Under the pieces are notes generated by a model. The model was not told where the DNA came from and ran no database searches. It was given only the letters and a program-made list of their open reading frames with translations. A stretch of DNA of 54,763 bases, from positions 1 to 54,763 of the IMG/VR virus record IMGVR_UViG_3300047284_000338, one strand, 5' to 3'. Numbering within the stretch: position 1 is the first letter of the stretch; each line of letters opens with the position of its first letter. The DNA comes from a virus. The position numbers and the translations under genes were made by a program. Of the stretch, positions 3,124 to 29,399 are shown piece after piece.

Positions 3124-4757
3124 TGGGCATTCGCACTCGATTGATGAGCGCCCTCGGCTTCGGGCCGAAGGAAGTCGCTCCGGCAAAACGTCGCCGCCGC
3201 ACATATGCGGGCGCGGTGATCAACCGGCTGACCAGCGACTGGATCGCGCACGGCACCAGCGCCGACGCGGAGATCAAGACCAGCCTGCGCAAGCTGCGCG
3301 ATCGCTCGCGCCAGATGGTGCGGGACAACCCGTACGCCCGACAGGCCAAGCGCACCACGCAGATCAACGTGGTGGGCCAGGGCGTGAAGATGCAGTCGCA
3401 GGTGATGACCCTGCGCGGCAACAAGCGCGACGAGCGGATCAACGCACTGCTCGAAAGCAAGTGGGAGCGCTGGTGCCGCGCTGATCACTGCGACGTGGCC
3501 GGCCGCAACAGCTTCCACTCGTTCGAGTGGCTGGCCGCCGGTGCGCTGCCCGAGAGCGGCGAGGTGATCTTCAGGATCCACAAGCGTGCGTTCGGCGGCA
3601 GCAAGATCCCGCTGGCTCTGGAGATCATCGAGAGCGATCTGCTCGACGACGAGTACAACGGCGCCGTGAGCGCCAAGGGAAACGAGTGGCGCATGGGGGT
3701 CGAGATCAACCCCTACGGCCGGCCGGTGCGCTACGCCTTCCTGACCCGCCACCCGGGCGATTACTGGTTCCAGGGGCAGCCTGACCGGGAGAACGTGAAG
3801 CACGTCTTCCTGCCGGCGAGCGAGGTCATCCACCTCTTCATCCCTGAGCGCCCCAATCAGCACCGTGGCGTGCCCTGGTTTGCACCTGTGATCGGCGATG
3901 CCCACCAGCTGGCGGGCTACGAAGAGGCCGCGGTGATCCGCGCCCGGTCGACCGCGGCGCTGATGGGCTTCATCACCAGCCCCGAAGGCGAGCTCGATGC
4001 CGATGACGTCGAGGAAGGCCAGCGCATCACCGAGTTCGAGCCCGGGGTCTTCAAGTACCTCGACGGCGGCCAGAGCGTGATCGTTCCCGATCTGCGGTCG
4101 CCTGACGCGCAGTACGAGGACTTCGTGCGGGCCAAGACTCGGCGCTTCGCGTCGGGTTTCGGCTGCTCCTATGAGACGCTGTCGAGGGACTTCTCGGAGA
4201 CCAACTACTCCAGCAGCCGGCTGTCGCTGCTCGAGGATCGCGACCACTGGAAGGTAGTGCAGAACTACCTGATTGAGAACTTCCACATGCGGGTGTTCCG
4301 CGAGTGGTTGGACGTAGCGGTTCTGAGCGGCGAACTTTCGCTGCCCGACTACGAATTGCGGCCCGAGCGCTACGACAACCCGAAGTGGCTGGCACGCGGT
4401 TGGACATGGGTCGACCCGCTCAAGGAGGTCAAGGCCTACCGCGAGATGGAAGCGGCCGGCTACATGACCAAGGCGCAGATCTGCGCACAGCTCGGCGGAG
4501 ACCTGGACGAGAACCTCCAGCAGATCGCTCGCGAGCGGAAGACTGCCGCCGACCTCGGTGTCCAGCTCGACGCTGATTTGATGCAGCCAGCCCCTGGCGC
4601 ACCGGTGGAGCCCAGCACCACTGAAGAGCCTCCTGTCGACGAAGCGCAGTCGAATGTGACCGCAGAGCCTCGCCGCAAGCCGACGAGATCGCGTCGCAAA
4701 AAGACGACTACAGTTGAAACAGTTCAACCCGAGCGTCCAGAAGGGCCGCTTAACTGA
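3123..4757 (+). CDS. portal protein (lambda GpB family)
   Basis: This 544-aa protein forms the dodecameric ring at the head vertex through which DNA passes. The family signature runs throughout: NPYARQAKRTTQINVVGQG near the N-terminus, a W..W.RADHCDVAG segment, IESDLLDD, YGRPVRYAFL, VIHLFIPERPNQHRGVPWFA, and SRDFSETNYSSSR in the clip/wing region. The last 60 residues are low-complexity, ending in a basic RRKPTRSRRKK tract. Its ATG overlaps the previous stop, and its own stop overlaps the next ATG, so translation is probably coupled. Confidence 0.95.
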   Translation: MGIRTRLMSALGFGPKEVAPAKRRRRTYAGAVINRLTSDWIAHGTSADAEIKTSLRKLRDRSRQMVRDNPYARQAKRTTQINVVGQGVKMQSQVMTLRGNKRDERINALLESKWERWCRADHCDVAGRNSFHSFEWLAAGALPESGEVIFRIHKRAFGGSKIPLALEIIESDLLDDEYNGAVSAKGNEWRMGVEINPYGRPVRYAFLTRHPGDYWFQGQPDRENVKHVFLPASEVIHLFIPERPNQHRGVPWFAPVIGDAHQLAGYEEAAVIRARSTAALMGFITSPEGELDADDVEEGQRITEFEPGVFKYLDGGQSVIVPDLRSPDAQYEDFVRAKTRRFASGFGCSYETLSRDFSETNYSSSRLSLLEDRDHWKVVQNYLIENFHMRVFREWLDVAVLSGELSLPDYELRPERYDNPKWLARGWTWVDPLKEVKAYREMEAAGYMTKAQICAQLGGDLDENLQQIARERKTAADLGVQLDADLMQPAPGAPVEPSTTEEPPVDEAQSNVTAEPRRKPTRSRRKKTTTVETVQPERPEGPLN

Positions 4758-7033
4758 TGGACGAACTGCAGGAGAAAACTGAAACCCCGAACGACGAGCG
4801 TGCCATGCACGATCTGACTGAGGAGCAGGTGGCTGCGATCGGTGAAACTATTGCCGAGGTCGTGGCCGAGCACATGGCTGAGATTGTCGAGGACACGGTT
4901 GAGACGCTGTCGGGTGAAGACCCGGAAGCTGAGGCCGATGCTCAGGAAATGGCTGAAAAGACTGCCCCCATGCTGTCCGCGCCGGTGGACGAGTACAGGG
5001 CTCAGCCAGGCGAGCTGAAGGTCGGCGATTTCGTGAGCTGGAACAGCTCCGGCGGCCGTGCTCGCGGACAGATCGAGCACATCATGCGCGAGGGCACGCT
5101 GGGCGTCCCCGACAGCGAGTTCAGCATCGAGGCGTCTGAAGAGGATCCCGCGGCCCTGATCCGCATCTTCCGTGAGGGCGCCGAAGGATGGGCGGCAACT
5201 GAGACAATGGTGGGTCACCGCTTCAGCACTCTGGCCAAGATCGAAGCCCTCCGGTCGATGGAAGGCAAGTATCAGCGCACCGAAACTACCGCTTTTGCGG
5301 AGGTGGAGGATCGAACCTTCGAGTTCCCCTTCAGCTCCGAGTATCCTGTGGCTCGCTACTTCGGCAACGAAGTGCTCAGCCACGAGATGGACGCCGCCGA
5401 TCTAAGCCGCCTCAACGATGGAGCTCCGCTCCTTTTCAATCACAACCCCGACAGGGTTGTGGGCGTCGTTGAGCGTGCTTGGATCGACGGCAAAAAGAAG
5501 CGGGGTTACGTCAAAGTGCGTTTTTCCCGCAACAGCTTCGCCAAGGAGGTGATGGCTGATGTCAAAGATGGCGTCCTTCGGGGTGTCAGCTTTGGCTATT
5601 CCATCAACAAGATGGAGGAGCGTGGCGACAACTTTGTAGCCACCGAATGGAGTCCGTACGAAGTCTCGGTCTGTAGCATCGCTGCAGATCCCAGCATCGG
5701 AATCGGCCGGTCGCTTGCGATCGACTCTGCGGCCACCGCCGCATCACCAACCCCAGAACCCAAGGTTCCTGAAATGGAAAACACCACCCCTGACGTGGAG
5801 GTGATCCGGTCCAAGGCCGTCGAGGCCGAGCGTAGCCGCATCGCCACCATCACCGCTCTCGGTGAAAAGCATGGCCTCCGTGATCTCGCTCGCGAGCTCA
5901 TCGACGGCGGTCGCACCGTGGACGAGGCCCGTGCCGCCGTCCTGGAAAAAATGGAAACTCGCGCCTCCAAAGTGGAACACCGCATCGCCGACGAAAAGGC
6001 CTCCGAAATCGGCCTTTCTGACAAGGAAGCCCGCAGCTTCTCCTTCCTGCGTGCTCTGAACTATCTCGCCAACCCTGGCGACAAGGAAGTTGCCAAGGCC
6101 GCCGCTTTCGAGCGTGAGGTTTCCGAGGCTGCCTCCAAGGCCTACGGCAAGCCCGCCAACGGCATCATGGTGCCCACCGACGTGCTGCGTCGCGACCTGG
6201 CCACCAGCCCCGCAAGCGCCGGCGGCAACCTCGTTGCTACCGACCTGCTGGCCGCCTCGTTCATCGAGCTGCTCCGCAACAAGCTGGCTCTCGCCAACGT
6301 GGGCGCCACTGTGCTGAACGGCCTGCAGGGCAACATCGCCATCCCCAAGCAGACCGGTGCTGCCACCGCGTACTGGGTTGGTGAGGGCAACTCCCCCACC
6401 GAGAGCCAGGAAGTGCTCGGCCAGGTCACGATGTCGCCCAAGACCGTGGGTGCCTTCGTCGACTACAGCCGCCGCCTGCTGCTCCAGTCCTCGATCGACG
6501 TTGAGCAGATGGTCCGCAACGACCTGGCTCGCGTGATCGCCCTGGAGATCGACCGCGCTGGCATCTACGGCTCGGGCAACAGCAACCAGCCCCTGGGTCT
6601 GATCAACACCGTCGGCATCAACACCAAGGCCCTGACCGGCTACGGCACCTTCGCCGAGCTGATCGACATGGAAACCGAGGTGGCCAAGGACAACGCCGAC
6701 GCCGGCTCGCTGTTCTACCTGATGAACGCCGCTGCCCGTGGCGCTCTGAAGTCCACCCCCAAGTCGACCTCTGCCGTGGCCGCTGGCTTCGTGTACGAGA
6801 ACGATCAAGTGAACGGCTACGGCGCTGTGGTCTCCAACCAGCTCGCCCTGGACGACATCCTGTTCGGTGCCTTCGATCAGATGATCATGGGCATGTGGTC
6901 CGGCCTGGATCTGACCCTGGATCCCTACGCCGGCGCCACCAGCGGCACCGTGCGGATCATCGCCCTGCAGGACGTCGACTTCGCTGTGAAGCAGCCCGGC
7001 GCCTTCTGCTACGGCACCGGCGCTCTGAGCTGA
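4757..7033 (+). CDS. fused tudor-like domain / prohead protease / HK97-fold major capsid protein
   Basis: One 758-aa reading frame holds functions usually split between genes. Residues 1-80 are acidic and helical. Residues 85-165 (KVGDFVSWNSSGGRARGQIE, ETMVGHRFSTL) match the small DUF2945/HVA1 tudor-like domain known from some phage head proteins. Residues 178-320 are an S78-type prohead protease with candidate catalytic His229 (LLFNHNPDR) and Ser278 (RGVSFGYS). Residues 340-460 are charged and coiled, like a scaffold/delta domain. Residues 460-758 are HK97 major capsid (VPTDVLRRDLATSPASAGG, GSGNSNQPLG, DPYAGATSG). No separate scaffold or protease gene exists. The protein presumably cuts itself during head maturation. 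Confidence 0.9.
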   Translation: MDELQEKTETPNDERAMHDLTEEQVAAIGETIAEVVAEHMAEIVEDTVETLSGEDPEAEADAQEMAEKTAPMLSAPVDEYRAQPGELKVGDFVSWNSSGGRARGQIEHIMREGTLGVPDSEFSIEASEEDPAALIRIFREGAEGWAATETMVGHRFSTLAKIEALRSMEGKYQRTETTAFAEVEDRTFEFPFSSEYPVARYFGNEVLSHEMDAADLSRLNDGAPLLFNHNPDRVVGVVERAWIDGKKKRGYVKVRFSRNSFAKEVMADVKDGVLRGVSFGYSINKMEERGDNFVATEWSPYEVSVCSIAADPSIGIGRSLAIDSAATAASPTPEPKVPEMENTTPDVEVIRSKAVEAERSRIATITALGEKHGLRDLARELIDGGRTVDEARAAVLEKMETRASKVEHRIADEKASEIGLSDKEARSFSFLRALNYLANPGDKEVAKAAAFEREVSEAASKAYGKPANGIMVPTDVLRRDLATSPASAGGNLVATDLLAASFIELLRNKLALANVGATVLNGLQGNIAIPKQTGAATAYWVGEGNSPTESQEVLGQVTMSPKTVGAFVDYSRRLLLQSSIDVEQMVRNDLARVIALEIDRAGIYGSGNSNQPLGLINTVGINTKALTGYGTFAELIDMETEVAKDNADAGSLFYLMNAAARGALKSTPKSTSAVAAGFVYENDQVNGYGAVVSNQLALDDILFGAFDQMIMGMWSGLDLTLDPYAGATSGTVRIIALQDVDFAVKQPGAFCYGTGALS

Positions 7034-7035
7034 GC

Positions 7036-8052
7036 ATGATCGCTGGGCTGATTCAGGCCAAGCGGAATTACAACCCCTCCCTGGTTTCGACCGGGGAGGG
7101 CTTTCTGTTGGCGTACCGGTCCGAACCGGAAGACTTCAAGGTCAGTGAGATCGTACTGGCCGAGCTCGACGCAGCTCGCAATGTGCTGCGCAACCAGCGG
7201 CTGAAAGTGCCCGGGGCCCCGGCCGGCTGCTCGCTTGAGGACCCGCGACTGTTCTGGTGCGGGGGTGAGCTGCACCTGGCGTTCTCGATGGCTCGCTACG
7301 GCGAGGCCGATGGCTGGAAATGCGTGCAGGCCTACGGCCGGTTGAGCAAGAAGGGTCGCAACTGGACCCTGGGCTCCGTCTGGGTGCCGCAGTACGGCGC
7401 CAACGACTGGAGCAGCAAGGAAAAGAACTGGACGTTCTTCGAGGCCGAGGGTGCGCTGCGGTGCATCTACGACATGGGCGCCGCTGGCTGGACCGTGCTC
7501 GAGCTCGAGGGCGACGAGGCGGTTCAGGAATGGCGACACCCTGCCCTGCGGTGGCGCTGGGGCCGCCTGAGCGGCGGCACGCCGGCGGTCGACTGGCAGG
7601 GCCAGAAGCTCACGATGTTCCACTCGTGGGAGAAGCACCCGAGGCGTCACCGGCTTTATCACGCGGCCTGGGTGGCGTTCTCAGCGACGGCACCGCATGC
7701 GCCGACGCTGGTCTCGCCAGGTCCGGTGCTGACCGCGAAGGAAGAGTGGGGTACCCCTGAGGGCGCTCGCGGCTGGCAGCCGCTGTGCGTCTTCCCTGGC
7801 GGCCTCGAGCTGTTTGGGCAGAAGGCGCTGGTGTCCTACGGCCAGAACGATCTGCACTGCGCCATCGATGCGATCCGCGTCGACCGCCTGCAGCGCGTGG
7901 TGCAGAAGCCGAACATCCGCGGCGAGATCCGCATCCGTCTCACTGGTGACGTGATGATCGGCGGCCAGCCGGCATGGGCCGGGACTGAGGTTGCCGTGCA
8001 GGCAGCCGACGCGGCTAGCCTGATTGCACGAAGCAAGGCGGTGCCGTTGTGA
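7036..8052 (+). CDS. glycosidase/phosphorylase-like beta-propeller protein (GH130/GH43-like)
   Basis: This 338-aa protein looks like a five-bladed beta-propeller related to GH130/GH43 enzymes. Visible landmarks, in order, are YNPSLV, LAYRSE, SLEDPRLFWCGGELHLAFS, EKNWTFFE, RLSGGTPAV, TMFHSWEKH and ALVSYGQNDLHCA. Their order resembles the propeller repeats of GH130 phosphorylases (NP..., YR, EDPR, G.PP, HS/HG, YGA.D). It sits two bases after the capsid gene and before the head-tail joiner, so it is expressed with virion proteins. It may decorate the capsid or act on host glycans. ATG 7036 is chosen because the upstream in-frame extension lies in the capsid gene. Activity is not proven: acidic catalytic residues cannot be assigned by eye. 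Confidence 0.6.
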   Translation: MIAGLIQAKRNYNPSLVSTGEGFLLAYRSEPEDFKVSEIVLAELDAARNVLRNQRLKVPGAPAGCSLEDPRLFWCGGELHLAFSMARYGEADGWKCVQAYGRLSKKGRNWTLGSVWVPQYGANDWSSKEKNWTFFEAEGALRCIYDMGAAGWTVLELEGDEAVQEWRHPALRWRWGRLSGGTPAVDWQGQKLTMFHSWEKHPRRHRLYHAAWVAFSATAPHAPTLVSPGPVLTAKEEWGTPEGARGWQPLCVFPGGLELFGQKALVSYGQNDLHCAIDAIRVDRLQRVVQKPNIRGEIRIRLTGDVMIGGQPAWAGTEVAVQAADAASLIARSKAVPL

Positions 8053-8498
8053 TCACCGAAAACCTCGACTTGTTCCTCGACGATTTCGGCGTTCAGTGCG
8101 TCAGTGGTGTCATCACTGGTGCTGGAATCCTGGACATGCCCAGCCAGGTCGTTGCCGACGGCATGGTCCTGACCACCGACTACAAGCTGACGTGCAAAGC
8201 AGCAGATTTCGGGGGTCTTGTGTACGGCGATGGCATCACTGTTGATGGCGTGAATTATCAGGTGCGCGAGACCATGCGCATCGACGATGGGCGCTTTGTT
8301 GAGCTGATGCTCACCAAACTTGCGCCCGACGTGGTGGCGCCCGGTGGCCAGCCGCGAGAGTTCGGTTTGGCCGATCTTTCCGACGTCACGATTCGATCCC
8401 CGCAGGCCGGCGATCGCCTTGTGTTCAATGGCAGCCAGTGGGTGGACGAGGAAGAAGCAGACGGCACTAACGTGTTGGATGGAGGCGGTGCGGACTGA
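8049..8498 (+). CDS. head-tail joining protein (lambda FII-like) with fibre-like C-terminus
   Basis: This 149-aa protein starts with GTG at 8049, overlapping the previous stop. Residues 1-100 show the FII-type plan: a short N-terminal helix, VDGVNYQVRE, then IDDGRFVELMLTKL. In lambda, FII sits between head and tail. The last 50 residues (LADLSDVTIRSPQAGDRLVF, NGSQWVDEE) are a short segment found at the ends of many phage fibre and neck proteins. This makes it a small fusion of a neck protein with a fibre-type motif. Confidence 0.6.
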   Translation: MITENLDLFLDDFGVQCVSGVITGAGILDMPSQVVADGMVLTTDYKLTCKAADFGGLVYGDGITVDGVNYQVRETMRIDDGRFVELMLTKLAPDVVAPGGQPREFGLADLSDVTIRSPQAGDRLVFNGSQWVDEEEADGTNVLDGGGAD

Positions 8499-8501
8499 CC
8501 C

Positions 8502-8810
8502 ATGACTCGGCAGCGGATCAAACTACGGCGCGATACCGCTGCAGCTTGGGCGGCTGCGAACCCAGTGCTGCTTGCTGGTGAGGCCGGGTTTGAGAGCGAT
8601 ACGCGACTGCTGAAAATTGGAAACGGCTCGTCTGCCTGGAATTCACTTTCCTACGTGGCTGGTGGAGTCAGTTCACTCGCCCAGCTGGTCGATGTCGACG
8701 CAACCAACTGCGTCGACGGCAGCGTCCTCATCTACGATGGCGCTATTGCCAAGTTCGTGGCCAGCCCACTGAACACAAAGCTCACGCTGACTGACGGAGG
8801 CAACTTCTGA
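8502..8810 (+). CDS. small virion protein with Mtd/hyaluronidase-type N-terminal domain
   Basis: This 102-aa protein begins RIKLRRDTAAAWAAANPVLL, then GEAGFESDTRLLKIGNG and AWNSLSYV. That is the short beta-domain at the N-terminus of Bordetella phage Mtd and many phage fibres, which anchors the fibre or starts trimerisation. Residues 58-90 repeat the LAQLVDVDA/GSVLIYDG motif seen at the end of the preceding protein. Without a long fibre attached, it probably forms an attachment collar for the next fibre. Its stop overlaps the next ATG. Confidence 0.6.
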   Translation: MTRQRIKLRRDTAAAWAAANPVLLAGEAGFESDTRLLKIGNGSSAWNSLSYVAGGVSSLAQLVDVDATNCVDGSVLIYDGAIAKFVASPLNTKLTLTDGGNF

Positions 8811-10273
8811 TGGCCAATACGCTGCGGATCAAGCGCCGTGCCTCCGGTTCACCCGGCGCACCAGCAAGCCTTCAGAACGCCGAACTCGCTTACAACGAGG
8901 TCGACGACGTTCTCTACTACGGCAAGGGCACCGGCGGTGCCGGTGGCAGCGCCACAACCATTCCTGCAATCGCAGGTTCAGGCGCCTATCTGACACTGAG
9001 CTCGGCGCAGACCGTCAGCGGCAACAAGACTTTCACGGGCGACGTCGTCGTCCCGACTCAGGCCAGCAGCGACAACAGCACCAATGCGGCCACCACGGCC
9101 TTCGTAAAGGCCCAGGGTTACCTGACCGGCAACCAGAGCATCACCTTCAGCGGAGATGCCTCGGGCAGCGGCACCACCTCGGTCACCCTGACCTTGGCCA
9201 GCGTTGGCACTGCCGGCACCTACACCAAGGTCACCACCGACGCGAAGGGCCGCGTCACCTCTGGCACCACGCTCAGCGCTTCGGACATCCCGACGCTGAC
9301 CGCTGCCAAGATCAGCGACTTTGACACCCAGGTTCGGACCAACCGTCTGGACCAGATGGCCGCGCCGACCGCGTCGGTGTCGCTGAACAGTCAGAAGATT
9401 ACCAACCTGGCTACGCCGACCGCTGACACCGACGCGGCTACCAAGGCGTATGTGGACGCCTCGCGCAGCGGCCTTGACGTTAAGGCCAGCGTCCGCGCTG
9501 CAACGACCTCAAATCTCCAGAACATCAGCGGCATTCAAATAATTGACGGTGTCACCCTTGTCGCTGGTGACCGCGTGCTGGTCAAAAACCAGAGCACGGC
9601 CAGCACCAACGGCATCTATGTGGTGGCGGCCAGCACTTGGTCCCGCTCGACCGACGCCGACACCGATGCCGAAGTCACCTCCGGCATGTTCACCTTTGTC
9701 GAGGAAGGTACGGTCAATGCCGACAGCGGCTGGGTCCTTAGCACCAACAACCCCATCGTCGTCGGATCGACTTCACTGACCTTCGCCCAGTTCTCTGGCG
9801 CTGGCCAGATTGACGCTGGCGCTGGCTTGGTGAAGAGCGGCAACACCCTGAGCGTGGGCACCGCCTCCACCGCCCGGGTCGTCGTCAACGCCGACAACAT
9901 CGACCTGGCCACGATCGGCACCGCCGGCACCTACCGCTCGGTGACCGTCGACGCCTATGGCCGCGTCTCGGCCGGCACCAACCCCACCACGCTGGCCGGT
10001 TACGGCATCGTCGACGCCCAGCCGCTGGATGCCACGCTGACGGCCCTGGCGGGCGTCACGGTGGCCGCAAACCAGCTGATCTACGCCACCGGCGCTGACA
10101 CCTTCTCCGTCGCCTCGCTGACCGCTTTCGGCCGCAGCCTGATCGACGACGCAGATGCTGCCGCCGGCCGCACCACCCTGGGCCTCGGCACTCTCGCCAC
10201 CCAGGACGCCAGCAACGTGAACATCACGGGCGGCGCGATCGACAACATCACTTTTGACGGCGGCACCTTCTAA
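8810..10273 (+). CDS. fibre-like virion protein
   Basis: This 487-aa protein is rich in Ala, Thr, Ser, Gly and Asn. Its N-terminus is a fibre anchor (TLRIKRRASGSPGAPASLQN, then AELAYNEVDDVLYYGKG). It then carries repeated fibre motifs: NSTNAATTAFVKAQGYLTG, SASDIPTLTAAKISDF, ATPTADTDAATKAYVDA, and LAGYGIVDAQPLDATLTALA near the end. A globular insert lies around residues 225-330 (VLVKNQSTASTNGIYVVAA), a domain also present in the fibre at 25058. It lies in the head-tail junction region, so it may be a head or neck fibre. Binding specificity is unknown. Confidence 0.65.
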   Translation: MANTLRIKRRASGSPGAPASLQNAELAYNEVDDVLYYGKGTGGAGGSATTIPAIAGSGAYLTLSSAQTVSGNKTFTGDVVVPTQASSDNSTNAATTAFVKAQGYLTGNQSITFSGDASGSGTTSVTLTLASVGTAGTYTKVTTDAKGRVTSGTTLSASDIPTLTAAKISDFDTQVRTNRLDQMAAPTASVSLNSQKITNLATPTADTDAATKAYVDASRSGLDVKASVRAATTSNLQNISGIQIIDGVTLVAGDRVLVKNQSTASTNGIYVVAASTWSRSTDADTDAEVTSGMFTFVEEGTVNADSGWVLSTNNPIVVGSTSLTFAQFSGAGQIDAGAGLVKSGNTLSVGTASTARVVVNADNIDLATIGTAGTYRSVTVDAYGRVSAGTNPTTLAGYGIVDAQPLDATLTALAGVTVAANQLIYATGADTFSVASLTAFGRSLIDDADAAAGRTTLGLGTLATQDASNVNITGGAIDNITFDGGTF

Positions 10274-10321
10274 GGCGCTCCGCCGTCAGTCCTGTCTACA
10301 TAGGCGCTCTCGGACAGCCAC

Positions 10322-10918
10322 ATGGCCAACACGTTCAAGCTGAAACGGTCGTCGGTCGCCAGCAAGGTGCCGACGACCGGGGATCTACAGCTCGGTGAGC
10401 TTGCGCTCAACACCTACGACGGCAAGCTCTACACGAAGAAGGACAACGGCACCGCGTCGATCGTTGAGATTGGCGCCGGAGGTGGCGGAACCAGCCTGTA
10501 CGCCGCCCAGGCGTACAACACCGGCTCGATCTCTGGCGTTACGACTGCAGCAGCGATCTCGTTCGGGGCGGAAGCGTTCGACAACGACAACATGTGGGCA
10601 TCAGGCTCGCCCACCCGCATGACCACACCCCGAGCAGGGGTTTATCGGGTCGAATTTTCAGCGCTCGTTACGTTTACCGCTGAAACCTATGTTCTAACGT
10701 TTTCTCTCCGAAAAAATGGCGTCGAAGTTCGCAGCTTCGTCTACCGTGAAAACTGGCGCTGGTTCAACGGAGACACTTTCACAGTGACTTTCAGCGACAT
10801 CGAGTCACTGGCGGCCAACGACTATCTGGAGGTATTTCACTCGGGGGATTCGACGGGCTACTCGATCGGGACGGCCGCAGCTTCCCGGGCTCAATTGTCC
10901 ATCTACCGGGTGTCCTGA
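10322..10918 (+). CDS. fibre-like protein with C1q/TNF-type jelly-roll
   Basis: This 198-aa protein has the same fibre-anchor N-terminus as the preceding gene (TFKLKRSS, LQLGELALNTYDGKLYTKKD). The C-terminal 135 residues resemble a C1q-like beta-sandwich: ISFGAEAFDND, TTPRAGVYRVEFSALVTF, LRKNGVEV, LAANDYLEVFHSG, AQLSIYRV. Such trimeric jelly-rolls cap phage fibres and can bind host surface molecules. It sits 48 nt after the previous fibre, and the two probably act as a set. Start ATG 10322; I see no strong ribosome site. Confidence 0.6.
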   Translation: MANTFKLKRSSVASKVPTTGDLQLGELALNTYDGKLYTKKDNGTASIVEIGAGGGGTSLYAAQAYNTGSISGVTTAAAISFGAEAFDNDNMWASGSPTRMTTPRAGVYRVEFSALVTFTAETYVLTFSLRKNGVEVRSFVYRENWRWFNGDTFTVTFSDIESLAANDYLEVFHSGDSTGYSIGTAAASRAQLSIYRVS

Positions 10919-19724: not shown

Positions 19725-20307
19725 GCTCTACGGCCCGCTTGCGAAGTTCATCGGCAAGCGCGTGCTTTATGCAGATGTGGCAACCGCGGCTGAAGCTGTG
19801 CGCTTCTTGCTGGCAAATTGGCCCACGGTCGAGAAGCATATGGCTGATCAGCACTACCGCGTCAGCGTCGGGGGATACGACATCGCTCTCGAAGAGCTGC
19901 ATCATCCCGCCGGCCAGCAAGAGATCAAGATCGTCCCAGTGGTCGCTGGCGCTGGAACGGTCGGGCGGATTCTGGCCGGGGTTGCCTTGGTGGCGCTCGC
20001 GATCGCAATCCCGGGGATCGGCGGCGGCGTCGCTGCCACGATCTTCGGTACGAAATTTTCGGCGCTCTCGCTGGCAATCGGCGGCGTCGGTCTAAGCCTG
20101 GCTCTCGGCGGCGTTGCGCAGCTGCTTACACCAGTGCCACAGGTTCCGCAGGTCGGCAAGGATTCCGACAAGGACCCTCGCAAGTCTTATAGCTTCAGCG
20201 GAATCCAGAACGTGTCGAGACAGGGCGTTCCGGTACCGGTGGTCTACGGCGAGACCATCGTGGGCTCAGTGACCATCAGCGCCGCCGTTGACATCAGCCA
20301 GACATGA
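19708..20307 (+). CDS. tail assembly protein I (lambda gpI-like)
   Basis: This 199-aa protein has an N-terminal ubiquitin-like domain ([20 protein letters not shown], then [12 protein letters not shown]). Two hydrophobic Gly/Ala-rich stretches follow ([20 protein letters not shown] and [20 protein letters not shown]), and it ends [20 protein letters not shown]. This is the lambda I plan; I is needed for tip assembly but is absent from the mature particle. I use ATG 19708, with GGGAGG about 10 nt upstream. A longer start at 19669 lies inside K. Confidence 0.85.
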
Positions 20308-23300
20308 CCGACATTCAACTGATCTCTGGCGCCGGCGGTGGTGGTGGCTGCTTCCTCGGCCATACCCTGATACGCACACCCCAGGGCTTGCGTCCGATCG
20401 AGACGCTCGACCGCGGCGATCAAGTATTGAGCTTCGACGATCAGGGCCAGCTACACACGGCGACGATCCTGAAGGTCCACGTCCATGAGGGCGAGCGCGT
20501 GGTGCGCTACCGGCTGTGGGGCGGTGCGGAGCTCGATGCCACACCAAACCACTGGGTACTGAACCAGTTCAACGCCTTCGTGGAGATCGGCACGCTGGGC
20601 GATGACGACTGCCTGGTCGACGAGAACGGCCATCTGCGGCCGATCGTCGGGCGGACTGACCAGGGCACGGGCACGGTGTACAACCTGACTGTCGAGGGTC
20701 ATCACACGTTCATTGCTGGCGGCATTAGGGTCCACAATGCCGGCTTGGGCCTAGGCATTGCCGGTTCAGGCGGCTTTGGCGGCGGCGGCAAAGGCGGCGG
20801 CGGCGGCACCAGGACTCCGACTGAGGCAGCCGATGACCTGAATAGCAGCGCCACCGTCGAGGTAATCGATCTCCTTGGCGAGGGCGAAATCGAAGGCTTT
20901 GCCACGCCATCGAAGGCCGGACTGGCCCGTGACAGCGCGGACTGGAACCGCGCCATGCTCAAAGACATCTACCTCAACAACACGCCAATTCTTCGACAGG
21001 GCGCGAGCAATTCTGCGCCCGCCGATGGCGACTACAACTTCAAGAACGTCGGAATCGAGGTCAGATACGGCACCCAAGCGCAGCAGCCAATCAACTCCAA
21101 CACTGGCAGCGGCGCTTCGGCAAATGAAGTTGCGGTCGGAGTTGTTGTCGAGAAAAACGTCCCTGTCACCAGGACGATCACGGATGTCAATGTCGACGCC
21201 GCAAGGGTGACAATCTCTTTCCCGCAGTTCCAGCAGTTCACGGACCAGGGCGACATCGTCGGCACCAGCGTCCAATTGCAGATCGCGGTGCAGTACAACG
21301 GCGGCGGCTTCACGACTGTCATTACTGACACAGTCACCGGCCGGTCTGGCGATCAATATCAGCGCGACTACATGGTGAATTTATCCGGCGCTTTTCCAGT
21401 CGACATTCGTGTAACGCGTGTCACGGATGACAGCAACAGTACCAAGTTAATCAACGCATTTACGTGGACCAGTTACACGGAAATTGTCGCGAAAAAATTT
21501 CGGTACCCGAACAGCGCATTAGTCGGAATGAGGGTTAATGCTGAGCAGTTCAGCAGCATCCCTACGCGGAGCTTTCGAGTCCGCGGACTAAAGGTTCAGA
21601 TCCCGAGCAATGCGAACGTTGACTTGGCCACGGGGCGTCTGGTTTACTCCGGCGTGTGGAACGGCACGTTCGGGGCCGCGCAGTGGACCTCGGATCCTTG
21701 CTGGTGTCTTTGGAATCTGTTGACCAGCAAAAGGTTTGGATTTGGTGATCACATCACTGCGGCAAGCTTGGACAAATGGGCCTTTTATTCGGCTAGTCAA
21801 TATTGCAACGAGCTCGTTCCGACCGGCTTCGGAGGCACTGAGCCTCGCTTCTCACTGAACTGCAACATCCAGACAGCGGAAGAAGCTCACAAGCTGATCA
21901 ACGACTTGTGCAGCGTGTTCCGGGCGATGCCCTACTGGGGCACGGGTGCGCTGACAGTGGCGCAGGACAAGCCCACAGATCCGACCTACCTTTTCACTTC
22001 CGCCAATGTTACCGAGGAGGGCTTCTCCTACTCGGGCAGTGACTCCAAAACGCGGCCGACGGTGGCAGTTGTGTCTTACCTCGATCTCACCACGAGAGAG
22101 ATCGCTTACGAGGTAGTCGAAGACGCCGCTGCAATGGCAAAGTACGGAGTCGTCACCTCAGAGATTGCTGCTTTTGCATGCACCTCCCGCGGCCAGGCTG
22201 CTCGCCTGGGTGAATGGCTCCTTTACTCAAATCAGTACGAAACAGAGGTCTTGAGCTTCACCGCGTCGGTCGATGCGGGTGTCCTAGTCCGCCCAGGACA
22301 GGTGATTGAGGTGGCGGATCCTGCTCGTGGCGGCGCAAGACGGGGTGGTCGTGTCGCCTCGGCAACAACAAATACCATTACGGTCGATAATCCGGTCGAT
22401 CTTCCTGATAACGGCGGCACGATTTCAGTCATCTTGAAAGATGGCAGCCTAGAAGCTCGGCCGGTTGTTACACGTGTGGGTAGCACTTTGACTGTTAGCC
22501 CGGCTTTCTCGTCGGCGCCGGGTATCAATTCCCTTTGGGTCTACAGCGGTGGCGGCATCCAGGCGACGCTGTGGCGCGTCTTGACGGTTCAGGAGCAGGA
22601 CGGAGCTCGGTACTCGGTGACGGCTTTGAGCTACAACCCGAGCAAGTATGACTTCATTGAGCGCGATCGGCCGTTGCAGTTCAGAGATGCCACAAACCTG
22701 AACCTAATCCCTGCCGCGCCTACGCGCCTGTCTCTCGCCGAAGCTCTTTACACGTATCAGGCCGAAGTGCGGGCAAAGGTGATCATCACCTGGCGCCAGG
22801 TGCGCGGTGTGAATCAATACCGAGTGAGGTGGCGGAAAGCCAGTGGCAACTGGAATACGCACACCACCCAGAGCCCTGACCACGAAATCTTGAACATCAC
22901 CCCGGGACTGTTTGAGGTGGAGGTGTTTAGCTTGAACTCTGTTGGCCAGATCAGCACGACAGCGCTGACAGGGAGCATCAACGCTTTAGGTAAGACGGCC
23001 CCGCCGAGCAATGTATCGGGTATGACGTATGCAATCGACAGCGATCTTGGCGTTTCGTTGAGCTGGAGTCCGGTTTCGGATCTAGACATCAAAGACTATG
23101 AGATTCGGCGAGGTGGCACCGACTGGGGCAGCGCTACACTTTTGGCATATGTAAAAACGACACGCTATGTTCTTGGGCTTATTGATCCCAGTGTTACAAG
23201 GTACTGGGTCAAGGCGAGAGACACGAGCAACGTTGTAAGTCAGAGCGCCGCTTCAACAACGGTCGTCATTACAGCGCCTGGTGCGCCTACCGTGACGCAC

Positions 23301-25058
23301 GCCATCCAAGATCCGCTTGCGATCATCTCCTGGACCACACCATCTGGATCGTACCGCCCAGATTATTACGACCTGCGGTACGGAAACACTTTTGCCGGCG
23401 GTGTGGGCGTCACCCGCGTGTATGGCAACAGTTTTAGTGTTCCAGTCACGTGGAGCGGCAGCCGAACTTTTTGGGTCGCAGGTGTCGATCCGGCAGGCAA
23501 TACTGGTACCGCCGGGTCGCGAGTAATTACTATTTCCGCAGCGCCGGCTCCGACTGTTTCGGCAGCATTCGCTGGAAGCAGCTGCACTCTTTCCTGGACA
23601 CGCGTCGACGGCTCACTGCAGACGTTTTTTTACGAAATTCGCTACGGAGCTTCATGGGAAACCGGCACTAAGGTCACCAAGATCGGCGCGGATGGTACCG
23701 GTTATTCTTTGACTGTCACATGGTCAGGTTCAAGGACCTTCTGGGTAGCGGCAATCGATGCCAACGGAAACTATGGCGCCGCGGGCAGTGTCGTGGCGAC
23801 TGTGGGACTTTCTCCGGCGCCATCGCTGTCCAACACGTTCTCTGGTCCGAATGCGCAGCTTAGCTGGCAACCTGTCAAGGGCACGCTGGAGACAGCCTTC
23901 TATGAGATCCGTCGCGGCAGCGCTTTTGCCAGCGCTACGGTTCAAGGTAAGGTAAATAGCAACTTGTTCACTACCAAGGTAGACTGGACTGGCACCGCTA
24001 AATTTTGGGTTGTCCCTGTAGATACTAACGGCGGCTATGGCGAATCAGCCTCTATCGATGTCACTTTGCCGGCCCCTTCCCAGCCCTCCATCGCTGTTCA
24101 GGTTGTCGACAACAATGTCTTGTTCCGGTGGCAGGACTGCACGACAGTGCTTCCAGTCGATGCTTACGAGTTGCGCCGAGGCTCGAATTGGGCGTCTGCA
24201 ACGGTAATTGGCACTAAGTCAGGCCTGTTTACCTCGGTATTCGAAACAACAAGCGGCTCGTTCACGTACTGGATTGCCGCGATTGACAGCTCGGGCACGT
24301 ACGGGGCGCCAGGCAGTGTTTTAGCGGTAGTCAGCCAGCCGCCCGACTACGTTCTGCAGCTTGACCAAAACTCTAACTTCAGCGGTACGAAGGTAAATGC
24401 AGTTCAAGAAAGTGCAACATTGTTATTGGCGGTCAACACTACGGAGACCGTTGAGCAACATTTTACCTCGAGAGGCTGGACGTCACCACAGGATCAGATC
24501 AACGCTGGTTACAGTTTCTGGCTGCTTCCGTCCGCGACATCGGGCTCTTACGAAGAAATAATTGACTACGGCGCTGTGGTGGGTGGTACTCGCGTTAGCC
24601 AAACGCTCACGAGCACGGCCGCCACCGGCTCAATGGTCGCCACTCCTAAAATAAGTGTAAAGAAACTTGCAACCGATGCCTGGACGGACTACCCCGACGT
24701 GGACCAAGTGTACGCCTCCGATTTTCAGTACATTAAGTTTCGATACGATTTCAATAGCGCCGGTAACGACGACCTACTATTGGTCACGAGCTTAAACTAC
24801 AGAATGGACCTGAAGCTCAAGAAGGACTTCGGATCGGGCACGAGCTCTGCTAGTGACGTCGGGGGAACTACAGTGAACTTCAATCTGAGCTTCATTGACG
24901 TGCAGTCCATTACCGTGACACCGTCTGGGACGGCTGCCCGCGTGGCCATCTATGATTTTGTGGATACCCCCGGCCCCACGAGCTTCAAGGTGCTCCTGTT
25001 CGACACCAACGGCAACCGGGTTAGCGGCGGCTTCAGCTGGAGCGCTCAAGGAGTCTGA
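20304..25058 (+). CDS. tail tip/host-specificity protein J with internal Hint (intein-like) domain
   Basis: This 1584-aa central tail-tip protein is like lambda gpJ. Residues 1-15 are a Gly-rich N-terminus. Residues 16-145 are a complete Hint domain (see 20349-20738). Residues 146-175 return to the Gly-rich linker normal for J, followed by RTPTEAADDLNSSATVEVID and LLGEGEIEGFA, the J family signature. A receptor-side region has at least six fibronectin-like repeats (about residues 805-1345), then a C-terminal beta domain. The ATG overlaps the I stop. The 21.4-24.8 kb part looks less GC-rich than the head genes. Confidence 0.92.
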   Translation: MTDIQLISGAGGGGGCFLGHTLIRTPQGLRPIETLDRGDQVLSFDDQGQLHTATILKVHVHEGERVVRYRLWGGAELDATPNHWVLNQFNAFVEIGTLGDDDCLVDENGHLRPIVGRTDQGTGTVYNLTVEGHHTFIAGGIRVHNAGLGLGIAGSGGFGGGGKGGGGGTRTPTEAADDLNSSATVEVIDLLGEGEIEGFATPSKAGLARDSADWNRAMLKDIYLNNTPILRQGASNSAPADGDYNFKNVGIEVRYGTQAQQPINSNTGSGASANEVAVGVVVEKNVPVTRTITDVNVDAARVTISFPQFQQFTDQGDIVGTSVQLQIAVQYNGGGFTTVITDTVTGRSGDQYQRDYMVNLSGAFPVDIRVTRVTDDSNSTKLINAFTWTSYTEIVAKKFRYPNSALVGMRVNAEQFSSIPTRSFRVRGLKVQIPSNANVDLATGRLVYSGVWNGTFGAAQWTSDPCWCLWNLLTSKRFGFGDHITAASLDKWAFYSASQYCNELVPTGFGGTEPRFSLNCNIQTAEEAHKLINDLCSVFRAMPYWGTGALTVAQDKPTDPTYLFTSANVTEEGFSYSGSDSKTRPTVAVVSYLDLTTREIAYEVVEDAAAMAKYGVVTSEIAAFACTSRGQAARLGEWLLYSNQYETEVLSFTASVDAGVLVRPGQVIEVADPARGGARRGGRVASATTNTITVDNPVDLPDNGGTISVILKDGSLEARPVVTRVGSTLTVSPAFSSAPGINSLWVYSGGGIQATLWRVLTVQEQDGARYSVTALSYNPSKYDFIERDRPLQFRDATNLNLIPAAPTRLSLAEALYTYQAEVRAKVIITWRQVRGVNQYRVRWRKASGNWNTHTTQSPDHEILNITPGLFEVEVFSLNSVGQISTTALTGSINALGKTAPPSNVSGMTYAIDSDLGVSLSWSPVSDLDIKDYEIRRGGTDWGSATLLAYVKTTRYVLGLIDPSVTRYWVKARDTSNVVSQSAASTTVVITAPGAPTVTHAIQDPLAIISWTTPSGSYRPDYYDLRYGNTFAGGVGVTRVYGNSFSVPVTWSGSRTFWVAGVDPAGNTGTAGSRVITISAAPAPTVSAAFAGSSCTLSWTRVDGSLQTFFYEIRYGASWETGTKVTKIGADGTGYSLTVTWSGSRTFWVAAIDANGNYGAAGSVVATVGLSPAPSLSNTFSGPNAQLSWQPVKGTLETAFYEIRRGSAFASATVQGKVNSNLFTTKVDWTGTAKFWVVPVDTNGGYGESASIDVTLPAPSQPSIAVQVVDNNVLFRWQDCTTVLPVDAYELRRGSNWASATVIGTKSGLFTSVFETTSGSFTYWIAAIDSSGTYGAPGSVLAVVSQPPDYVLQLDQNSNFSGTKVNAVQESATLLLAVNTTETVEQHFTSRGWTSPQDQINAGYSFWLLPSATSGSYEEIIDYGAVVGGTRVSQTLTSTAATGSMVATPKISVKKLATDAWTDYPDVDQVYASDFQYIKFRYDFNSAGNDDLLLVTSLNYRMDLKLKKDFGSGTSSASDVGGTTVNFNLSFIDVQSITVTPSGTAARVAIYDFVDTPGPTSFKVLLFDTNGNRVSGGFSWSAQGV
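20349..20738 (+). other. Hint / A-type bacterial-intein-like domain inside J
   Basis: This covers residues 16-145 of J. Block A is CFLGHTLIRTPQGLRPIETL with the nucleophile Cys16, followed by DRGDQVLSFD. Block B is TPNHWVL (Thr80, His83). Blocks F/G are VYNLTVEGHHTFIAG then IRVHN, ending at Asn145. No homing-endonuclease insert is present, so it is mini-intein sized (130 aa). The residue after Asn is Ala, not Cys, Ser or Thr, which argues against standard splicing. It fits A-type bacterial intein-like domains, which splice or cut with variable flanks. Flanks on both sides are Gly-rich linker. Confidence 0.88.
22715..24345 (+). repeat. fibronectin III-like repeats in J
   Basis: At least six diverged protein repeats of 75-95 residues recur. 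Each has a YEIRRG/YDLRYG strand, a W.G...FWV.A.D motif and a glycine turn such as GNYGAAGS. Examples are FYEIRYGASWETGTKVTK, FYEIRRGSAFASATV and AYELRRGSNWASATVIG. Such repeats extend the tail tip and vary readily by recombination. Confidence 0.7.
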
Positions 25059-27416: not shown

Positions 27417-29399
27417 ATGGCCGTTTTCGCTCTTCGATGCTTTGATCCCAGTGACAAGACTAACAAGGTTGTCTATTATGACAACTCAAACAATCTCATC
27501 ACAGACGGGCACGACACTGCTCCTCATACTGACCAGCCAGTCCTGACTCCGCATCGCGTATCACGTGAAACTCCAGCCGGGAAGGCTGCGCTGCCTCGCG
27601 TGCTCAAAATCCAAATGGGCTTGAGCTGCAACTACTCTTGCGAGTATTGCGTGCAGCGTTTTGTGCCCCATGCCGATGAAACCAGCGCCGTGATGGTGCC
27701 GGCGTTCGTCGAAGCTCTGCGCAGCTGGTTCAACCCGCCTAATGGCGGGGAAGGACGCCGCATCGAGTTCTGGGGCGGTGAGCCGCTGGTCTACCTGAAG
27801 ACCATGCGCCCTCTGGCTGAAAAACTTCGAGCAGCCTACCCCAACATCAGATTTTCAACTATTACCAACGGCTCACTGCTCACTCGCGAGATTGTCGATT
27901 GGTTCTACGACATGGGTTTTTCCCTGGCCATATCTCACGATGGCCCAGGCCAGGCGGTGCGCGGGATCGATCCGCTGACACGTCCCGCAACACGAGACGC
28001 ATGGCTTTACGCTTACCAGCGACTCAGCCCTTACCGGATCTCCTTCAACACCATGATGAACCGCGAAAACCGATCGCGGTGGGCAGCAGCTCAGTTTTTT
28101 CGCGAGCTGACTGGCAATCCAGGTGTGGTGGTCGGAGAAGGCAGCATTGTCGATGCTTACGACGAAGGTGGCGTCTCAATGTCGCTCAGGCCTGAAGATT
28201 TCAAGGTCTATGCAAATCAAGCATGGGCAGAAATAAGACAAACTGACGTCGCAGCCAACTTTGGAATTATTCCTTCCCGAGTGAACGAGTGGCTCAACGC
28301 TTTCAATACCATGCAGCGAGCCGAGACTCTCGGCCAAAAGTGCGGCATGGATCGAATGGACTCAGTGGCAGTCGACCTGCGCGGCAACGTGGTCACCTGT
28401 CAGAACGTGTCGGCATCGGCTACCGCTCCAAACGGGGAGTCGCACAAGATCGGCCACATGTCCAGCATGGAGGACGTGAAGCTCAACACGGCTACCCACT
28501 GGAGCTTCCGCGACAAGTGCTCCAAGTGCCCCGTGCTCCAGGTCTGCAAAGGCTCTTGCATGTTCCTGGAGGGTGAGTTGTTCGAGGTGAGCTGCAACAA
28601 CGCCTACTTTGATCACGTGCCAATGTTCGCAGAAGCGCTATTGCAGCGGACCGGGCTTGTACTGCGTGAAATCGTGGGCGACTTGCCAGCAGAGCGCCGC
28701 GATCCATTCGGATTGGCTTATCCGGCGCCGCTTCTGACATCTTCGACCAGTCCTGAGCTGCAGAAGTGGCGTTTGCACAGTGACTTTATTGAGGCATACT
28801 ATGTGCCTGACGTTCTAAACAAAGAAGAGTGCAAGAGAATCATTGGCGCCGCTGACACTTGCATGGCTCAGGACTTTACTGTTGGCAAGGGCGGGTTTCG
28901 GGTTTGGAGCGAACACCGGACTAGCGCAAGCTCGAAGATGCCATTAGTCGATTCCGATTTTTGCATGGAGCGAGAGATCGACGCCCGTCTGGCTGCGATT
29001 ATTGGATGGGACCCCGCCGCAAGCGAGCCCATGAGATTGTTGCGCTACGAACCAGGTCAGCAATTCAAGCTGCACGCGGACTATTTTCCAGATGTCAAAA
29101 ATGAGTGGACTGAGCCCGGCGGTCAAAGAGTTTGGACTGCATTGCTTTACCTGAACGACATGGAGCAAGACCAGCAAGGGGAGACCAATTTTCCTGACGC
29201 CGGTATTCAGGTTTCGCCTCGAGCAGGATCTGTATTGTTGTTCCGAAATCTGCTTGATGATGGTCAATGCAATTACTTTGCCCGCCACGAAGGACGGCCT
29301 CCGGCATTTGGTGTTAAGTTTTGTTTGACCAAGTTCTTTCGACAAGAGCCTGGTCGCAATCCCCTGTACGCTTCAGTCAATCAAGAGGTCTTCGCTTGA
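27417..29399 (+). CDS. radical SAM/SPASM maturase fused to prolyl-4-hydroxylase-type 2OG-Fe(II) oxygenase
   Basis: This 660-aa fusion has a radical-SAM CxxxCxxC at Cys71, Cys75 and Cys78 (SCNYSCEYC), with GGEP at 120-123. The SPASM domain has all seven cysteines in canonical spacing: C309-x13-G-x4-C328, C368-x2-C371-x5-C377-x3-C381, then C393. Residues 450-640 are a P4Hc oxygenase: HxD at His553/Asp555, distal His624 and 2-oxoglutarate-binding Lys634 (HEGRPPAFGVK). SPASM enzymes usually modify peptides at unactivated carbons, and P4H domains hydroxylate side chains. Placement just after the Cys-rich fibre suggests two-step modification of that fibre. No RRE-like leader-binding domain is seen. 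Confidence 0.93.
   Translation: MAVFALRCFDPSDKTNKVVYYDNSNNLITDGHDTAPHTDQPVLTPHRVSRETPAGKAALPRVLKIQMGLSCNYSCEYCVQRFVPHADETSAVMVPAFVEALRSWFNPPNGGEGRRIEFWGGEPLVYLKTMRPLAEKLRAAYPNIRFSTITNGSLLTREIVDWFYDMGFSLAISHDGPGQAVRGIDPLTRPATRDAWLYAYQRLSPYRISFNTMMNRENRSRWAAAQFFRELTGNPGVVVGEGSIVDAYDEGGVSMSLRPEDFKVYANQAWAEIRQTDVAANFGIIPSRVNEWLNAFNTMQRAETLGQKCGMDRMDSVAVDLRGNVVTCQNVSASATAPNGESHKIGHMSSMEDVKLNTATHWSFRDKCSKCPVLQVCKGSCMFLEGELFEVSCNNAYFDHVPMFAEALLQRTGLVLREIVGDLPAERRDPFGLAYPAPLLTSSTSPELQKWRLHSDFIEAYYVPDVLNKEECKRIIGAADTCMAQDFTVGKGGFRVWSEHRTSASSKMPLVDSDFCMEREIDARLAAIIGWDPAASEPMRLLRYEPGQQFKLHADYFPDVKNEWTEPGGQRVWTALLYLNDMEQDQQGETNFPDAGIQVSPRAGSVLLFRNLLDDGQCNYFARHEGRPPAFGVKFCLTKFFRQEPGRNPLYASVNQEVFA

Follow-up and report, generated by a model that had tools for sequence, protein, structure and literature searches.

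Enzymes that act on carbohydrates and are carried on phage virions are usually located in the tail. On the phage head, Hoc of T4, pb10 of T5, gp12 of SPP1, and gp8.5 of phi29 are decoration proteins that interact with carbohydrates (review PMC7602432). These proteins employ Ig-like or other binding folds and include no propeller of the carbohydrate-active-enzyme kind; the term "propeller" is absent from that review (PMC7602432), and our literature search found no paper on GH130 or propeller head decoration. A second point of reference is the cement protein Bbp16 of phage BPP-1, a protein on which phage production depends and which ranks among the virion's two most abundant (PMC3863775). Among the GH130 enzymes themselves, Asn73, Asp131, and Asp344 of BF0772 hold mannose in the -1 subsite (PMC4264767), and Asp131, equivalent to Asp142 of BT3780, is the proposed catalytic acid (PMC4599007).

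The window analyzed here, a 54,763-nucleotide stretch of viral DNA, carries in its head operon a gene that bears on these systems (positions 7036–8052; this gene, its parts, and its two flanking genes are on the plus strand). The gene encodes one protein of 338 aa, consisting of a GH130-like propeller followed by a C-terminal DUF7210-like domain. On balance, we favor the view that this is a capsid-associated head protein, tethered by its C-terminal domain and displaying a glycan-binding propeller, that arose through a single fusion event accompanied by loss of a cement gene. Its proposed function, surface-glycan binding from the head, would resemble that of Hoc, pb10, gp12, and gp8.5.

The gene lies between two recognizable head genes. 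Upstream is a prohead protease–major capsid fusion gene (4757–7033) with matches to Peptidase_S78, Phage_capsid, the major head protein phrog_617 (2e-166), and the capsid structure 8gta (E 7e-54); near its N-terminus it also carries an Hva1_TUDOR domain (residues 90–136). Downstream is an FII-like head-tail joining gene (8049–8498; Phage_attach PF05354, 7e-12; NF049848 FII). The preliminary description had put a gap of 2 nt between the capsid and propeller genes, and this holds: the capsid stop codon TGA occupies 7031–7033 and the propeller ATG begins at 7036, an adjacency to the major capsid gene that characterizes phage capsid decoration genes. At its other end, the propeller gene shares its final 4 nt with the FII-like gene. 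All 14 relatives inspected at the capsid–propeller junction likewise start with MIAGLI and show the TGA-NN-ATG arrangement, and dN/dS between the window and relatives ranges from 0.13 to 0.32, indicative of purifying selection. With its conserved start and junction and this selection, ORF 7036–8052 is a true gene.

Several other origins or modes of expression were considered and rejected. The GC content (0.67) and codon usage of the propeller gene resemble those of adjoining genes, contrary to a recent foreign origin. An independently expressed moron is likewise rejected, as no promoter was found between the propeller gene and its capsid and FII neighbors or at the propeller gene start, and the single terminator-like match falls inside the coding region, within chance expectation. 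The propeller reading frame is open upstream of its ATG; a programmed -1 frameshift that would generate a capsid–propeller fusion is rejected, as no relative has a slippery heptamer in the 150 nt that end its capsid gene.

The protein occurs in 20 other viral contigs at 66–83% identity, in the same place wherever the flank is present. No relatives were found in isolated phages or plasmids, and none were confirmed in cellular genome contigs. More distant GH130-like proteins bearing the KEKNW motif described below occur in two other viral contigs (L021:5458–6804 and L025:2826–3890), and a fold search located proteins of this type in giant viruses as well.

Residues 1–288 (7036–7899) are predicted to form a GH130-type β-propeller of five blades, as structural alignments span residues 1–288/289 of the model. 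The Pfam GH130 model (PF04041) gives 28.2 bits, above its cutoff of 26, over residues 181–289 only, and the best PDB match of the propeller-family profile is the β-1,2-mannobiose phosphorylase 7fip (E 4e-8). The AlphaFold2 model (pLDDT 87, pTM 0.82) finds GH130 structures in all of its top 21 entries, at Z 22.8–26.6 over 263–271 residues, followed by GT108 (Z 20.6–22) and then by GH43 (≤19.5) and others. Thus, of the "GH130/GH43-like" propeller that had been proposed, with comparison to GH130 templates as its suggested check, the GH130 part is upheld by Pfam, profile, and predicted fold and the five blades by the predicted fold, whereas the GH43 part probably reduces to membership of a wider fold (Z ≤19.5), with no GH43 Pfam match in the protein. 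In its modeled fold, then, the propeller protein is GH130-like. It shares the five-bladed propeller and the N/ED/D sugar-site residues with the GH130 mannoside phosphorylases Teth514_1789 (7fip), Teth514_1788 (9fj8), and Lin0857 (5b0p), and a Glu precedes the catalytic Asp, as in GH130_NC. It differs from 7fip, 9fj8, and 5b0p in its sequence (12–17% identity), its additional C-terminal domain, its head-operon location, and a substrate class that is only putative.

The Asn/Asp/Asp triad of the GH130 -1 subsite is represented in the alignments by Asn13, Asp69, and Asp272. Asn13 (7072–7074), conserved in all full-length relatives, corresponds to the mannose-binding Asn28 of Teth514_1789 and Asn73 of BF0772 in a HMMER alignment to 7fip. 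Asp69 (7240–7242), within an LEDPR motif, is invariant and aligns through 9fj8 with the catalytic-acid position, Asp131 of BF0772 and Asp142 of BT3780. Asp272 (7849–7851), in a YG(R/Q)ND motif, is likewise invariant and corresponds to Asp287 of Teth514_1789 and Asp344 of BF0772 in the alignment to 7fip. The three residues are kept in relatives down to ~28% identity, and the KEKNW motif (Lys128–Trp132; 7417–7431) is invariant even in 28%-identical relatives. GH130 phosphorylases bind phosphate through basic residues, and GH130 hydrolases have paired Glu instead; of the three positions concerned, two were mapped, and there Arg177 and His196 align with basic residues of phosphorylases. The conservation of these residues suggests that the propeller protein possesses a working sugar site.

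An earlier reading had treated 7036–8052 as a propeller alone; residues ~298–338 (7930–8046) instead constitute a separate small domain, homologous to a stand-alone gene found behind the capsid gene of related phages (SLBS1_A06 and others). Profile–profile comparison aligns the propeller C-terminus with the N-terminal ~40 residues of this ~70-aa protein (probability 95.6, E 1.3e-8, 39 columns). Among the 19,524 ORFs of the surveyed loci, all propellers with an intact C-terminus rank directly after the stand-alone small genes, over their last ~40 residues. The propeller C-terminus is the sole match of the small-gene profile in the whole window (E 8.9e-6) and its best match in whole propeller genomes. 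Pfam DUF7210 (PF23843) itself gives 11.5 bits on the C-terminal domain, below the cutoff of 27, so the relation is drawn via the small-gene profile only. No structural match of the small domain was found in the PDB. Unlike the propeller fusion, the stand-alone proteins have a tail that is Pro/Ala/Lys-rich or of the Rho_N type. Roseobacter phage CRP-811 (L109:4353–4800) has two such small genes in tandem after its capsid gene and no cement gene.

The occupancy of the slot between the capsid and FII genes was surveyed through a capsid search that yielded 80 loci; four contigs end before this region. The slot holds a small gene and a cement gene in 59 contigs, a small gene only in 1, and the propeller gene in 20 plus the window; propeller and cement never occur together (0 contigs). 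The two-gene form, a ~70-aa DUF7210-like gene plus a ~130-aa jellyroll gene, is also found in the Synechococcus phages S-LBS1, S-CBS1, and S-CBS3, in ECOO78 (Escherichia), and in Persinger (Pseudomonas). In every examined relative with a complete region, a DUF7210-like small domain follows the capsid gene.

The ~130-aa neighbor that the propeller appears to displace has the jellyroll typical of BPP-1 cement. Its profile matches the BPP-1 cement 3j4u (E 4.5e-8), and its model (pLDDT 85) resembles a chain of Agrobacterium phage Milano located at the neck and portal vertex (Z 10.3), a capsid chain of Agrobacterium phage 7-7-1 (Z 10.2), BPP-1 cement (Z 9.4), and the Carin1 capsid (Z 7.7). As modeled, it is a jellyroll decoration protein and a homologue of BPP-1 cement. 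Bbp16 and the S-LBS1-type protein share with the propeller protein a genomic slot and a proposed decoration role; they are jellyrolls of 120–140 aa, in contrast to a 288-aa propeller of unrelated sequence, whose model has a propeller fold and not a jellyroll. The cement profile matched all 8 control records but hit neither the window nor any of the ten propeller records searched from close relatives (9 + 1), records that may be incomplete. Relocation of the cement gene elsewhere in the propeller genomes is rejected on this comparison, and the case that the gene is missing from them, though strong, falls short of certainty.

A tree of 63 capsid sequences groups the 14 propeller phages in a single clade (support 96/95) and places the cement phages on the other branches. 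Because the propeller phages are thus united, the simplest history would be a single event in which the propeller was fused to the small domain and cement was lost: a GH130 propeller would have been inserted between the capsid and small genes and fused in frame with the latter, and the downstream jellyroll cement gene would have been lost alongside. The mutual exclusion of propeller and cement is therefore evidence from one evolutionary event, and not a set of independent replicates. Cement is, moreover, dispensable in the wider lineage, since CRP-811, RcCronus, VP882, and Alexa have the small gene without cement, and the capsid of R4C bears no decoration (PMC10276861). Given that some relatives lack cement, its loss need not mean functional replacement by the propeller.

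Our favored reading, that of a tethered head protein, draws on the tight coupling of the propeller to the capsid and FII genes, the domain fusion, the exclusion within the slot, and the conserved sugar site. The analysis shows the predicted fold, the fusion, the missing cement gene, the single origin, and the retained sugar-site residues; from these we infer virion presence, C-terminal attachment, outward display, and glycan contact. The C-terminal ~40 residues (DUF7210-like) would tether the protein to the capsid; the N-terminal GH130 propeller would be displayed on the head, where it could bind, and perhaps slowly cleave, glycans of the host surface, β-mannoside-like or otherwise. Most likely, the protein occupies a decoration niche and is predicted to bind, and perhaps cleave, host glycans. 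More tentatively, and with less confidence than we attach to head association itself, the propeller may have taken over the niche of jellyroll cement by way of the capsid-adjacent domain, coating the head with many glycan-binding or glycan-cleaving copies. One point against this reading is that inorganic phosphate, the substrate of GH130 phosphorylases, sits awkwardly with an enzyme carried outside the cell on a virion.

An alternative that we regard as unlikely is that the protein is an assembly factor, its DUF7210-like domain being a packaging accessory of the lambda FI type with affinity for the prohead or for DNA, and its propeller a platform that serves in assembly only or resides inside the head. 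The slot between the capsid and FII genes corresponds to the position of lambda gene FI, and the Rho_N domain fused to the small domain in three relatives (ECOO78, Persinger, and Alexa) is more suggestive of a role with DNA or in assembly than of display on the surface. However, no Packaging_FI match was found in Pfam, and an assembly platform would have no need of sugar-site residues that persist to such low identity.

Less probable still is a non-structural enzyme, either a mannosyltransferase or a mannoside phosphorylase, that would change the glycan metabolism of the host during infection and lie in the head operon by chance. Such an enzyme would account for the conserved GH130 active site, including Arg177 and His196, two mapped positions that align with the basic Lys/Arg and His of the phosphorylases 7fip and 9fj8, and it has a parallel in the distant L021 relative, which sits among glycosyltransferase-like genes as judged from ORFs. 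It leaves unexplained why the protein is fused to a domain encoded beside the capsid gene, why its position is the same in all contigs, and why cement was lost.

Least probable is a protein of the neck or head-tail connector, with the propeller exposed at the portal vertex. Of the "capsid decoration or neck-bound" protein that had been suggested, the decoration half gains from the cement slot and the capsid-adjacent C-terminal domain, and the neck half draws on the FII joiner as next gene and on weak matches of a few small-domain homologues to the connector families phrog_2322 and phrog_24650, against which stand the separate head-tail joining genes of the window (the FII gene and a phrog_5774 gene) and the fact that the slot taken over belongs to cement.

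If the tethered head protein is correct, a GH130 propeller in a decoration slot would represent a new fold for head decoration, as far as the literature was searched, and a single step would have put an enzyme in place of a structural gene. The DUF7210-like small domain becomes a candidate capsid anchor with a testable function. Sister clades with related capsids, one bearing jellyroll cement and the other the propeller, offer a natural comparison for capsid stability, diffusion through slime, and host adhesion. As for the host, the cyanobacterial suggestion of the preliminary description is only plausible, and the help in adhering to polysaccharide slime that it proposed is conjectural: Synechococcus siphophages are among the isolates nearest in capsid and terminase, at 45–50% identity, and a capsid search of cellular genomes returned only a weak match to a Bacteroidetes MAG.

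Further genes of the window merit description. Three fiber-like genes (8502–10918) separate the FII gene from the tail-completion gene that comes next, the first with an Mtd_N domain and the second matching phrog_2647, annotated "head decoration," at 1e-55; these may encode more surface proteins near the head or neck. A gpJ-like tail-tip protein of 1584 aa (20304–25058) contains near its N-terminus (residues ~16–145) a Hint/intein-like domain that starts with CFLGHT, ends with HN followed by Ala, and resembles a bacterial intein-like domain. Downstream of the tail genes, a 660-aa protein (27417–29399) combines a radical SAM domain with a C-terminal 2OG-Fe(II) oxygenase domain.
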